From contig VGXC01000004.1 of assembly GCA_016873495.1 (NCBI GenBank), positions 1 to 64,000 of the forward strand: a stretch of 64,000 bases of DNA, in the 5' to 3' direction. The first letter of the stretch is position 1. Each line of letters starts with the position of its first letter. The position numbers and the translations under genes are program-made. A model generated the notes under the pieces. It did not search any database, was not told the DNA's origin, and saw nothing but the letters and a program-made list of their open reading frames with translations. Origin of the DNA: Nitrospira sp. Lineage in GTDB: Bacteria > Nitrospirota > Nitrospiria > Nitrospirales > Nitrospiraceae. Positions 27,301 to 31,934 of the stretch are shown piece after piece.

Positions 27301-27978
27301 ATGTTCCACGTGGAACATCGCACAGAACCAGGTGGTAGATTTTTGAAGGCCCTCGTTGATGGGGCGGCCGAATTGGCCGTGCCTCTCTCTCAGTCATTGG
27401 CCGACCAGTGCGCAATGTACGTTCATGAATTGCAAGTCTGGAACGACAAGACGAACTTGACGGCGATCACCGATGAGCGAGAAATAGCCGTCAAGCATTT
27501 TCTGGATTCTCTGGTTTGCACGAAGGCGCTTGACCAGTCCGGACAAGCCAGACTCTTAGACGTAGGCAGTGGGGGCGGTTTCCCCGGTATTCCCATCAAG
27601 CTGATGCATCCTGAGCTGGACGTGACTCTTCTTGAGCCAAGTCAGAAAAAGGCGGCTTTTCTGCGCCATCTCATTGGTACGTTGAAGCTTGACCGTATCG
27701 TGGCCATTCCAATGCGAATCGAGGAATTTTCGCGCGAGCCGATCTATCAGGCTGGCTTCACCACCATCATCACCAGGGCTGTGAATGTGGCCAGCCTGCT
27801 TGGCTGTTTCCTCCCGTTGCTCAGCCAAAATGGGGTCGTTATCCTTTGTCGCGCGAAGCCGTTGGAGGCTGAATTTCCATTGGACGGCTTGCAAATTAGG
27901 CGTGAAATCGCCTATACCTTGCCCATGGGGCACGGATCTCGTGTGCTGACGATCTTGGAAAGGAAGTCTCGTCCTTAG
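27301..27978 (+). CDS. rsmG: 16S rRNA (guanine-527-N7)-methyltransferase RsmG (GidB)
   Basis: A 225-residue RsmG that methylates G527 of 16S rRNA. NDKTNLTAITDEREIAVKHFLDSL and the SAM motif LLDVGSGGGFPGIPIKL (about 86-102) are diagnostic. The first residues MFHVEH are encoded by a parS palindrome that includes the start-codon bases, a situation known for gidB in other bacteria. No good ribosome site precedes the ATG, so a later start is possible, but none is better placed. It lies between mnmG and parA, with a second parS after it. Confidence 0.92.
   Translation: MFHVEHRTEPGGRFLKALVDGAAELAVPLSQSLADQCAMYVHELQVWNDKTNLTAITDEREIAVKHFLDSLVCTKALDQSGQARLLDVGSGGGFPGIPIKLMHPELDVTLLEPSQKKAAFLRHLIGTLKLDRIVAIPMRIEEFSREPIYQAGFTTIITRAVNVASLLGCFLPLLSQNGVVILCRAKPLEAEFPLDGLQIRREIAYTLPMGHGSRVLTILERKSRP
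27302..27317. promoter_or_regulatory. parS site 1 (ParB-binding palindrome)
   Basis: TGTTCCACGTGGAACA is a perfect 16-bp palindrome matching the bacterial parS consensus TGTTnCACGTGnAACA. It overlaps the rsmG start codon and lies about 1.5 kb from parB, the cognate spreading protein. Confidence 0.92.
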
Positions 27979-27986
27979 GCTCCCGT

Positions 27987-28002
27987 TGTTCCACGTGGAA
28001 CA
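27987..28002. promoter_or_regulatory. parS site 2 (ParB-binding palindrome)
   Basis: A second, identical TGTTCCACGTGGAACA copy, eight bases after the rsmG stop and 42 bases before parA. Besides nucleating segregation, ParB bound here could affect parAB transcription. Confidence 0.92.
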
Positions 28003-28043: not shown

Positions 28044-28820
28044 GTGGCACGCATTATCGCCGTCGCAAATCAAAAAGGAGGGGTTGGAAAAACAACCACT
28101 TCGATCAATTTAGCTGCGGCCTTGGCGATCCAGGGCAAGGCTGTATTGTTGATCGATATGGATCCCCAAGGAAATACGACGGGCGGAATCGGAGTCGATC
28201 CGGCAAGCCTCAAGCACACGGTCTACGATTGTCTTCTGCGGGGAGTCCCCACAAGTGAGGCAATTCAGGCAACCGCCATTCAAGGACTTCAGATTTTGCC
28301 GGCAAACGCGGACCTGGCCGGAGCAGAAGTCGAACTCGTGCCTCTCCAAGACCGGGAAGCACTGCTCAAGGCGGCGATCCAAGCCCTTCCGGTGGCGCCG
28401 GAGTTCATCATTGTGGACTGTCCGCCGGCGCTGGGGTTGCTGACGATCAACGCCTTGACCGCAGCCTCGTCGGTCTTGATTCCGGTGCAGTGTGAATATT
28501 ACGCGATGGAGGGGCTCGGGCGTCTGCTCTCCAATGTGGCCCGTATCCAGGAATCGCTGAATCCGGCCCTGGCGCTGGAGGGCATTCTATTGACCATGTA
28601 CGACTCGCGAAACAGCCTAGCCCGCCAGGTGTCCGAAGAAATTCGATCGCACTTTAAGGAGAAGGTCTACCGCACCGTCATTCCTCGCAACGTGACACTC
28701 GCGGAAGCCCCCAGCTATGGCAAGCCGGCTATGTTGTATAACTCAGCTTCCGCCGGTGCCCAGGCCTATCTCGATCTAGCCAAGGAGTTGCTCGACCATG
28801 GAAAAGCGAGCCCTCGGTAA
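28044..28820 (+). CDS. parA: Chromosome-partitioning ATPase ParA (Soj)
   Basis: A 258-residue Walker-type ParA with deviant Walker A KGGVGKTT (11-18) following IIAVANQ, DMDPQGN as the A' motif, and FIIVDCPPALG as Walker B. It lacks the N-terminal HTH of plasmid ParA, so it is the chromosomal Soj type. It binds DNA non-specifically as an ATP dimer and pulls ParB-parS complexes. The GTG at 28044 with AAGGTGG upstream is chosen over an ATG-type start at 28020. It overlaps parB by 23 bases. Confidence 0.96.
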   Translation: MARIIAVANQKGGVGKTTTSINLAAALAIQGKAVLLIDMDPQGNTTGGIGVDPASLKHTVYDCLLRGVPTSEAIQATAIQGLQILPANADLAGAEVELVPLQDREALLKAAIQALPVAPEFIIVDCPPALGLLTINALTAASSVLIPVQCEYYAMEGLGRLLSNVARIQESLNPALALEGILLTMYDSRNSLARQVSEEIRSHFKEKVYRTVIPRNVTLAEAPSYGKPAMLYNSASAGAQAYLDLAKELLDHGKASPR

Positions 28821-29646
28821 GGGACTGGATGCCTTGCTGCCGACCGGCGTGGCGAAACCGCCAGCAGCCGGAGGCGAGTCGCAACAGGTTCCAGTCGAGC
28901 AGATCATCCCGAACCGGTACCAACCAAGAACCGAGTTCCATGAAGCCGAGCTGTCCCAGTTGGCCGAATCCCTGAAGCTACATGGTATCCTCCAGCCGCT
29001 CGTGGTCCGCCGCAAAGGTGACGGGTTTTTTGAGTTGATCGCCGGGGAGCGTCGCCTACGCGCGGCTAAGTTGGCTGGCTTGCGCCTAGTGCCGGTGACG
29101 ATCCGGAACAGTACCGATGAGCAAGCTCTGGTCCTAGCTCTCCTGGAAAACCTCCAGCGAGAGGATTTGAATCCGATGGAAGCGGCAAGGGCCTATCAAC
29201 GCATGGGCAAGGAGTTCGGATTCACCCAGGATTCGATTGCCCAGCAGATTGGGAAAGACCGGTCATCGGTAGCCAACATTGCCAGGCTTGTAAATTTACC
29301 TAATGAAATCCAGAGCTTAGTCGAATCAGGCAAGCTCTCGACCGGCCATGCGAAGGTCTTGCTCGGCCTCCCAAAGACGGAATCCCAACTCAAGCTGGCC
29401 CGCCACATTGTGTCGGCTGAGTTGTCCGTTCGCCAGGCAGAGCGGTTGGCCACCAGCCAGCCTCGAACGGCCAAGCCCAAACAGCAGGGCCGTGCAGCCA
29501 GAGCTTATCCGGACTTGGAGGAACGGCTCCAGCGGCGTCTTGGCACCAGGGTGAGTATCGTCAAAGGGCGCAGCGGAGGCCAGATACAGATTGACTATTT
29601 CACGCCGGCAGAGCTGGACCGTTTGGTCGAACTGCTGCTCGGATAA
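28798..29646 (+). CDS. parB: Chromosome-partitioning protein ParB (Spo0J)
   Basis: A 282-residue ParB/Spo0J. It opens with the conserved KRALGKGLDALLP. The CTP-binding ParB/Srx domain contains NRYQPRTEF, LxxSLKLHGILQPLVVR and GERRLRAAKLAG. The HTH region (about 140-205) includes QDSIAQQIGKDRSSVANIARL, followed by a C-terminal dimerisation domain. It binds the two parS sites just upstream and slides as a CTP clamp. It is translationally coupled to parA. Confidence 0.96.
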   Translation: MEKRALGKGLDALLPTGVAKPPAAGGESQQVPVEQIIPNRYQPRTEFHEAELSQLAESLKLHGILQPLVVRRKGDGFFELIAGERRLRAAKLAGLRLVPVTIRNSTDEQALVLALLENLQREDLNPMEAARAYQRMGKEFGFTQDSIAQQIGKDRSSVANIARLVNLPNEIQSLVESGKLSTGHAKVLLGLPKTESQLKLARHIVSAELSVRQAERLATSQPRTAKPKQQGRAARAYPDLEERLQRRLGTRVSIVKGRSGGQIQIDYFTPAELDRLVELLLG

Positions 29647-29661
29647 GCTACGATAGCGCCT

Positions 29662-29684
29662 GCAAGAAAAGCAGATTTTCTTGC
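29662..29684 (+). terminator. Hairpin after parB
   Basis: GCAAGAAAA (29662-29670) pairs perfectly with TTTTCTTGC (29676-29684) 15 bases after the parB stop. The right arm itself begins with T4. It probably separates parAB from the bactofilin genes. Confidence 0.55.
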
Positions 29685-29785
29685 CTTCCATCTGACCATT
29701 CAGTATGCTCAAATCTTCTGCTACGGGAAGATAATATCGATCATACGCCGTAGGAGTTGGTTTTCATGCCGAGGAGGTTCTAAGG

Positions 29786-30289
29786 ATGTGGAAAAAGGAC
29801 AAAGTCGAGGGCAAAAGCACCAGCGTCACCAGCGAGGAGGGAGGAGTCATGGCTAATCAGGAAGCGGTAGTGCCGAGCACGGAAAAAGACGAGAATGTCA
29901 TTGCCTTTGTCGGCAAAGGCGTGGAGTTCAAAGGCATCATCAGCTACAACGGCACGGTTCGCATTGACGGCGTGCTGGACGGGGAAATCCACACCGAGGG
30001 AACCCTGCTGGTCGGCGAAGAAGCCGTGCTTACCGCCAAAGTCAGCGCGGGCACGGTCGTGAGCAAAGGGAAAATCACCGGGGACATCATTGCCAAGGAA
30101 AAAGTCCGGCTCCTGGCGCCCGCGGTGCTCAATGGTTCGATCAAGGCTCCGATGCTCTCCATGGAAGAGGGAGTCCTCTTCAACGGCAATATCGAGATGT
30201 CGCGCGCGGAGGTCCATGACCTACAGCGTGAAGCCGGACTGCGAGCCATCAATGCGCCTTCCAGCAACATCAAGCGGGTGACGGGCTAA
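29786..30289 (+). CDS. Bactofilin (polymer-forming cytoskeletal protein)
   Basis: A 167-residue bactofilin. After a short unstructured N-terminus, the DUF583 beta-helical core runs about residues 36-140: GKGVEFKGIISYNGTVRIDG and GEIHTEGTLLVGEEAVL are diagnostic, followed by repeated six-residue turns (GKITGDIIAKEKVRLLAPAVL). Members polymerise without nucleotide and scaffold cell-wall or segregation proteins. GAGGAGG lies nine bases before the ATG. It follows parB and precedes a second bactofilin, an arrangement that suggests a role with ParABS. Confidence 0.9.
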   Translation: MWKKDKVEGKSTSVTSEEGGVMANQEAVVPSTEKDENVIAFVGKGVEFKGIISYNGTVRIDGVLDGEIHTEGTLLVGEEAVLTAKVSAGTVVSKGKITGDIIAKEKVRLLAPAVLNGSIKAPMLSMEEGVLFNGNIEMSRAEVHDLQREAGLRAINAPSSNIKRVTG

Positions 30290-30402
30290 CCACTCAGCCG
30301 TCATGGCATTGAAAGACCAGGGCATGTCGCGGGCAAAATCTGTGAGGGCATCCGCAGGGGGGATCAGCACCCTTGCGAGAATCGCCACCGGAGGTTAAGC
30401 CT

Positions 30403-30855
30403 ATGTGGAATCGCAACGGTAAAGGGAAAACGCCGATCATCGAAGACGAGAACTTCACTTTCCTCGGGAAGGGAGTCGACTTCAAGGGAGTGGTTCATTT
30501 CGACGGCACCGTCAGGATCGACGGCCGCCTCGAAGGAGAAATCCATACCAAGGGCACCCTCATCATCGGGGAACATGCCGTCATCAAAGGGATCATCACC
30601 ACGGGTACCCTTGTGAGCGGCGGGAAGCTTCAGGCGAACATCACCGCCCTCGAAAAAGTGCAGCTCCTGAAGACCGCCATCCTGATCGGCGATGTCCGGT
30701 CTCCGTCCTTCTCGATGGAGGAAGGGGGGCGTTTCCAGGGTATGTGCGACATGGGCGTGGACATGTGGGTGGATCAAGAACGTCCGGACCATGAAAACGT
30801 GCATGACCTCGCCGCTCACCGCGGAAAGGTGCGTCTCCAAGATATCCAGCCATGA
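30403..30855 (+). CDS. Bactofilin (second copy)
   Basis: A 150-residue paralogue of the preceding gene: GKGVDFKGVVHFDGTVRIDGRLEGEIHTKGTLIIGEHAVIKG gives the same beta-helix start. The C-terminal tail differs and is longer and more polar (DMWVDQERPDHENVHDL). The ATG at 30403 with GGAGG upstream is preferred over an upstream non-ATG start. Its stop overlaps the mnmA start (ATGA), so bactofilin and mnmA are co-translated. Two unlike bactofilins side by side could co-polymerise. Confidence 0.9.
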   Translation: MWNRNGKGKTPIIEDENFTFLGKGVDFKGVVHFDGTVRIDGRLEGEIHTKGTLIIGEHAVIKGIITTGTLVSGGKLQANITALEKVQLLKTAILIGDVRSPSFSMEEGGRFQGMCDMGVDMWVDQERPDHENVHDLAAHRGKVRLQDIQP

Positions 30856-31934
30856 CCGGTCCGACCGTGCTCCTGGGCATGAGCGGCGGTGTGGATAGCT
30901 CGGTTGCCGCCGCCTTGCTGGTCGAGCAGGGGTATCGCGTCCAGGGCGTCACGCTCCAAGTCTGGGAGCACGAGGACGAATCGGTCGCCGTTTCCAAGCG
31001 TTGGGAGGAGCGAGGCTGCTGCAAGGTCGGCTTGGCGCGCTTTGTCGCGCAGCGTCTGGGCATTTCCCACGAGGTCATCGACACCCGCGAGATTTTCCGA
31101 TCCGGTGTGATCGATGATTTTCTCTCCGGCTACCTTGCCGGCACCACCCCGAATCCCTGCGTCCGTTGCAATGAACGGGTGAAGTTGCGGTCCTTGCTGT
31201 GTCTTGCCGAAGAGCGGCGGGTGGACTTCGTCGCGACGGGCCATTACGCCAGGGTCGTGGAGCAACAGGGCAGATTCGGCCTGCACCGCGCCTGCGATGT
31301 CCGGAAAGACCAGAGCTACTTCCTCTACCGGCTCAACCCCGCGTGGCTCCCCAAGCTCTTGTTCCCCGTCGGAACCATGCAGAAGGCCGAGGTCTGGGCC
31401 AGGGCCGAGTCCCTGGGGTTGCCGGCGGATGAATTGAAGGAGAGTCAGGAGATCTGCTTCGTCTCTCACGGAGACTATCGGACCTTCATCGAGGCCGAGG
31501 CGCCGGAGTCGAAGCAGCGGGGAAACATTGTCGATCCTGAAGGCAATGTCCTCGGACAGCACGACGGCATCGCCTACTACACGCCGGGACAGCGCCGCGG
31601 CCTGGGCGTCGCCACAGGCCAGCGCCTCTATGTCCAGCGCGTCGAGGCGGCCACGCAGACGGTGGTGGTCGGACAAGAAGAAGAATTGTTTCGGTCGGAT
31701 TGTCGGGTCGGGGAGGTGAACCTGTTCGACGAGGCGCTCCGGACCTGTTCGACGGAGGCGCAAGTTAAAATCCGGTACGCCACGCCTCCAGCTCATGCGA
31801 CTGTGAGCCCCGATCAAAACGAGATGATGACCGTCCGATTTGCCGCGCCGCAGCGTGCCCTCAGCCCCGGCCAGTCCGCGGTATTCTATGACGGCGACCG
31901 CGTCCTGGGCGGCGGCATCATCCAGGCTCGGTAG
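30852..31934 (+). CDS. mnmA: tRNA-specific 2-thiouridylase MnmA
   Basis: A 360-residue PP-loop enzyme. The ATP-pyrophosphatase motif is GMSGGVDSS (9-17), the first catalytic Cys is in NPCVRCNERVKL, GHYA and KDQSYFLYRL follow, and the second catalytic Cys is in SQEICFV. It thiolates U34 of tRNA Lys, Glu and Gln. It is coupled to the upstream bactofilin by ATGA overlap. mnmE and mnmG, which modify the same uridine, are encoded 4-7 kb upstream. Confidence 0.96.
   Translation: MTGPTVLLGMSGGVDSSVAAALLVEQGYRVQGVTLQVWEHEDESVAVSKRWEERGCCKVGLARFVAQRLGISHEVIDTREIFRSGVIDDFLSGYLAGTTPNPCVRCNERVKLRSLLCLAEERRVDFVATGHYARVVEQQGRFGLHRACDVRKDQSYFLYRLNPAWLPKLLFPVGTMQKAEVWARAESLGLPADELKESQEICFVSHGDYRTFIEAEAPESKQRGNIVDPEGNVLGQHDGIAYYTPGQRRGLGVATGQRLYVQRVEAATQTVVVGQEEELFRSDCRVGEVNLFDEALRTCSTEAQVKIRYATPPAHATVSPDQNEMMTVRFAAPQRALSPGQSAVFYDGDRVLGGGIIQAR

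Follow-up and report, generated by a model that had tools for sequence, protein, structure and literature searches.

In Myxococcus xanthus, the gene that comes directly after parAB is bacM, whereas bacNOP and padC sit at a separate operon, and it is BacNOP that, acting through PadC, provides the ParABS scaffold; deletion of bacM did not significantly affect ParA localization and left ParB localization unaffected, as far as the excerpted text of PMC5703909 goes. The same paper is cited for E. coli K-12 having no bactofilin of its own. Cells without BacM are bent to crooked, according to the excerpt of PMC4372379. In Bdellovibrio bacteriovorus, parA3, parB and the bactofilin gene bd3904 are co-transcribed, and a Myxococcus-like role has already been proposed in print in the portion of PMC7186360 that concerns them; the gene order also appears in the excerpt of PMC10547168. 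Our literature search found these two papers only on bd3904, nothing related by title on bactofilins in Nitrospira and, among the open-licence papers searched, no published survey of the parB–bactofilin order. The gene order itself is already known in these two model bacteria.

The window analyzed here, a 64,000-nucleotide stretch of a Nitrospira sp. contig, carries on a single strand mnmE, mnmG, rsmG, parA, parB, two bactofilin genes (bac1 and bac2), mnmA and atp genes. Like BacM of M. xanthus (Mxan_7475), the window bactofilins lie directly behind parAB and fall on the same side of the tree, in which M. xanthus is represented by copies from Hyalangium and Archangium; a core with short tails is a further likeness, and BacM polymerizes, as the window bactofilins are predicted to do. 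However, BacM is one gene rather than two, its shown role is in cell shape, and the BacM copies examined are without the VHDL..HR.K tail of Bac2. Bdellovibrio shares the parA–parB–bactofilin order and, through related records, the same side of the tree, but has one bactofilin, with short tails in three related copies (L238, L242, L243). The Myxococcus BacNOP–PadC system resembles the window in its tandem bactofilin paralogues and proposed link to ParABS; its other clade, separate operon, PadC adapter and basic BacP tail were none of them found in the window. Lying directly 3' of parB and grouping with BacM apart from BacNOP, the window bactofilins are of BacM type, with neither a BacNOP-type core nor a long basic-ended BacP tail (the end KKKVVVKKK, present in Hyalangium, was not found in them). 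Caulobacter BacA and the Thermus thermophilus bactofilin (2n3d, 6ria, 6rib) share the beta-helix core and polymerization Phe, and the membrane-targeting N-terminus of BacA is another likeness; differences are that BacA recruits the cell-wall synthase PbpC and that the Bac2 model is 25–31% identical to solved bactofilins.

Layout of the locus and its proteins

Table 1. Features of the parABS–bactofilin locus, in window coordinates
Feature	Position	Strand	Evidence
parS site 1, TGTTCCACGTGGAACA	27302-27317		exact 16-mer match
parS site 2, rsmG–parA gap	27987-28002		exact 16-mer match
rsmG (gidB)	27301-27978	+	TIGR00138 1.8e-39; sequence
parA, Walker-type partition ATPase	28044-28820	+	GTG start; Pfam AAA_31 8.1e-61; KGGVGKTT motif visible
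parB	28798-29646	+	Pfam ParB_N, HTH_ParB, ParB_C; nearest solved chain 7bnk_A 2e-55
bac1, bactofilin 1, 167 aa	29786-30289	+	Pfam Bactofilin 6.3e-25; PDB 6ria 3.3e-9 by sequence; Bac1 clade
bac2, bactofilin 2, 150 aa	30403-30855	+	Pfam Bactofilin 4.6e-26; core model vs 6ria TMt 0.95; Bac2 clade
Bac2 tail motif NVHDLAAHRGKVRLQD, aa 132-147	30796-30843	+	pattern match
mnmA	30852-31934	+	MnmA equivalog NF001138 1e-118; Pfam MnmA 6e-63

The locus has the full set of marks of a chromosomal ParABS system: a ParA ATPase, a ParB with its N domain, HTH and C-terminal dimer domain, and parS. The two perfect parS 16-mers are the only ones in the whole 3.19-Mb genome, the reversed control giving 0. ParB carries GERRLRAA and ENLQR boxes, an HTH, a C-terminal dimerization domain and an N-terminal LGKGLDALL, motifs that we presume to have their usual ParB roles. 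As called, rsmG opens with six codons (27301-27318, ATGTTCCACGTGGAACAT, MFHVEH) that are themselves a parS site, a layout with a long open frame that occurs otherwise only in genome G250 among the loci scanned in families f1-f20.

The original prediction of ParA–ParB followed by two unlike bactofilins agrees with the gene calls, with Pfam and with the common core and differing tails of the two proteins, whose scores against the Bactofilin family PF04519 (87.7 bits for Bac1, 91.4 for Bac2) compare with a curated cut-off of 27.9. The parA and parB genes overlap by 23 nt, and 139 nt separate parB from bac1 on the same strand; for bac2 we place the start at the ATG at 30403, preceded by GGAGG, the mechanical TTG at 30373 being less likely. 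A terminator scan of the coding strand in the parB–bac1 gap found none, and the best sigma-70-like matches at 23 loci averaged 7.4, against 7.5 in approximate shuffles, so that bac1 may or may not be transcribed separately. The gap folds only 1.7 sd better than shuffles, with a hairpin that, by eye, is absent from most relatives.

Bac2 is modeled as a beta-helix whose two ends are floppy (block pLDDT 87-98 for residues 21-120, near 50-65 at both ends), and the model also matches 6rib (TMt 0.92) and 2n3d (0.82); for Bac1, a beta-helix core is supported by alignment only. The polymerization-interface Phe, F130 of BacA in the excerpt of PMC12448750, aligns with F132 of Bac1, and its Bac2 counterpart, F111, does not vary across 41 sequences. 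At their N-termini, Bac1 (MWKKDK) and Bac2 (MWNRNGK) follow a general pattern M-W/F/L-x-K/R that resembles the published membrane-targeting consensus MFSKKKK. Because of the beta-helix model, the kept Phe and these N-termini, membrane filaments are, from what is known of the family, the likely product of both genes.

The Bac2 tail shows V-H/R-D-L/I/F..H-R-x-K, or something close, in 15 of 20 Bac2 proteins from tandem loci as well as in G133 and a stray G288 copy, by a pattern drawn up after the sequences had been seen. No other row matched it; two Bac1 proteins, the window's and its nearest relative's, have VHDL without the remaining motif. Since a short motif kept in a floppy tail suggests some partner, this lineage-specific VHDL..HR.K is plausibly a partner-binding site, and it offers a ready target for binding work.

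Bactofilin phylogeny and the search for PadC

Our large tree covers 105 bactofilin cores over 101 columns, with many forks unresolved. Its BacM and BacNOP rows, the Hyalangium and Archangium copies, were assigned by place, BacM as the copy behind parB and BacNOP as the three-gene run before a padC-like gene. Here the Nitrospirota parB-adjacent copies, BacM and other parB-adjacent copies share one branch (support 90), to which a long-branched Gemmatimonas copy is the sole parB-adjacent exception, and the BacN, BacO and BacP of Hyalangium and Archangium split from them (99). A careful 30-row tree separates the parB-adjacent copies plus BacM from BacNOP at 100/100 and rejects a clade that joins the Nitrospirota copies to BacNOP without BacM (p-AU 0.00013). 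Also rejected is a clade of the Nitrospirota copies and BacM alone (p-AU 0.0044), because BacM groups with the Bdellovibrio copies. The parB-adjacent kind of bactofilin thus appears distinct from that of the sole known ParABS scaffold, a distinction that separates two easily merged ideas. Some Nitrospirota have an extra bactofilin, not near parB, that the tree places with BacNOP (L015 and L035 of family f8, and L306).

Within the Nitrospira order, the Bac1 clade has support of 97 and the Bac2 clade 94 (96 without family f3), and the two sit on a joint branch (82; 97/93 in the 30-row tree). Since each is a clade within one branch, Bac1 and Bac2 stem from a single duplication at the root of this order. 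The single copies in family f2 (G133, G081) are Bac2-type, so that bac1 was lost in those. The genome holds three bactofilins, two of them at the parAB locus; the third (L218:6546-7115, G000:C27), a long branch inside the Bac1 clade, is solitary on another contig, with a desaturase-like ORF and small lipoprotein-like ORFs, named by eye, nearby.

As a PadC query we used the Hyalangium PadC-like protein (L323:2282-3157) encoded beside that organism's BacNOP-like genes. In the window genome it matched only ParB and a ParB-like ORF on contig C81, so that no padC was found, and a ParB_N family search returned the same two. This second ParB-like gene (L217, G000:C81:857-1129) lies beside what by eye is a recombinase-like ORF and probably belongs to a mobile element. 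At E 0.01 the query matched in 118 of 295 genomes; we rejected these as evidence of PadC, since nearly every listed match is, by place and length, either ParB or a further ParB-like ORF. The original prediction had drawn an analogy to the Myxococcus ParABS scaffold, which on this point is not supported: the precedent in Myxococcus involves a different bactofilin group, another locus and an adapter not found here, and a scaffold reading, though possible, is thereby deprived of its main support.

Spread of the parB–bactofilin order

ParB was sought in 127 Nitrospirota genomes, about one per genus with some bactofilin-less genera left aside, and found at E 1e-25 in 118; bactofilins around it were detected with a profile made from the loci themselves. 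A bactofilin lies directly 3' of parB on the same strand at 51 of 119 Nitrospirota loci and recurs there in other phyla, so that the adjacency picked out by the original prediction is not restricted to this genome. (G110 and G145, two of 121 loci, were picked by bactofilin place; they are excluded from the adjacency counts and included in the tail-motif, sigma-70-like and mnmA-overlap tallies.) The order is nearly universal in the window's class (families f1-f11; 33 of 34 loci, the miss being one genome's second ParB), as against 18 of 85 Nitrospirota loci outside it. All 14 such loci in the window's family, window included, have two parB-adjacent bactofilins, a tally that takes in the G165 bac1, a 54-aa C-terminal ORF that is perhaps broken and was kept out of the trees; there are two in four of six loci of family f2 and three in the one locus of f3. 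At two loci (L135 and L139, families f6 and f9) another bactofilin gene, encoded on the opposite strand, lies just past mnmA.

Families f12, f15, f18, f19, f21-f23 and f25-f36 have parAB without an adjoining bactofilin. No bactofilin was found in the ten f19 genomes listed, and since this family keeps both parAB and parS (5/5 loci) the bactofilin is dispensable for them. At four of the five f19 loci read (L124, L130, L137, L197) mnmA lies directly behind parB, a natural bac-less block; the fifth contig ends earlier.

A wider set of 80 ParB loci, sampled across bacteria at large, includes 13 with a bactofilin no more than 2.5 kb from parB. They come from relatives of Myxococcus, Bdellovibrio, Acidobacteria, Aminicenantes, Gemmatimonas and others, with the caveats that the L233 case depends on a long overlapping frame and that the L222 bactofilin is 2 kb off; none of the records named gamma- or alphaproteobacteria in this set has one within that distance. 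Two Firmicutes/Bacillota records (L223, L226) have bactofilins some 3-5 kb behind parB, beyond the adjacency count. In a sample of the Bdellovibrio phylum (49 genomes searched, 48 with ParB), 43 have a bactofilin directly behind parB, three second stretches inside one frame being omitted from the count. The corresponding figure for the phylum of Myxococcus and Hyalangium is 24 of 35 ParB-bearing genomes (38 searched), a count in which 36 listed bactofilin rows were entered and the rest checked by eye, none of these lying on the ParB contig of a genome scored non-adjacent. The parB–bactofilin order is thus old and widespread rather than peculiar to the window genome, and the survey points to a long-standing association of a bactofilin with parAB in several phyla. 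Because two of the genome's three bactofilins are here and the arrangement recurs across families and phyla, we take the adjacency to go beyond chance.

Possible roles of the bactofilin pair

The chromosomal parABS locus of the window has, as its third and fourth genes, BacM-type bactofilins that arose as a pair by duplication. We give an even chance to the reading that envelope or shape is their main duty. Bac1 and Bac2 would then assemble, probably together, as nucleotide-independent filaments on the inner membrane face; their unlike tails, foremost the VHDL..HR.K of Bac2, may dock different client proteins; and their chief task would be organization of the cell envelope and shape, as for BacM, with the filaments produced alongside the segregation proteins. 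This envelope-first reading is supported by the grouping with BacM, by the BacM deletion, which had no significant effect on ParA placement, none on ParB placement and altered shape, and by the bactofilin-free parAB and parS of family f19, although the transfer of function from BacM to Nitrospirota across phyla is a weak analogy. Counting against it, the adjacency of parB and bactofilin persists without mnmA or rsmG and in other phyla, more than co-expression alone would call for in a shape gene, which favors some tie to ParABS. That Bac1 or Bac2 tethers ParA or ParB directly is possible and not our default. The concrete question raised is what a parB-adjacent bactofilin contributes, if anything, to segregation.

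A polar or subpolar scaffold, built from the two bactofilins and holding ParA and ParB by direct contact or through an adapter other than PadC, strikes us as rather doubtful. The deep conservation of the parA–parB–bactofilin order in several phyla speaks for such a scaffold, as do the unlike tails with their conserved Bac2 motif and the Bdellovibrio co-transcription, for which the excerpt of PMC7186360 prints the same idea. Weighing against it are the parAB-adjacent BacM of Myxococcus, without effect on ParA or ParB localization in the passages of PMC5703909 concerned, and the window copies, which are not BacNOP-type; moreover, the PadC search gave nothing beyond ParB's own ParB domain and the ParB-like gene by the recombinase-like ORF, and in many Nitrospirota that have parAB the bactofilin is missing or lies at another place. 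It seems improbable, too, that a BacM-type bactofilin was the ancestral third gene of the chromosomal par operon in several phyla and that its doubling in the Nitrospira order yielded a two-protein filament serving as a PadC-independent ParABS anchor, evolved separately from BacNOP, in which the Bac2 motif would dock ParA, ParB or a new adapter.

We also think it unlikely that the order mnmE-mnmG-rsmG-parA-parB-bac-mnmA-atp is merely old, with a bactofilin functionally unconnected to ParABS. The same-family loci do keep the block from mnmE to mnmA, mostly through atpA, the tRNA enzyme gene mnmA is an equally long-standing neighbor, and the bactofilin-free f19 retains parB next to mnmA; yet parB and the bactofilin stay together where mnmA is gone (f16, f24, f37) or rsmG is (several loci), and in phyla with a different block. 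The original prediction had further coupled the second bactofilin to mnmA. The 4-nt overlap of the bac2 stop with the mnmA start is real here, but such an overlap is found at only three of 16 same-family loci, so we treat it as a local detail rather than a functional coupling.
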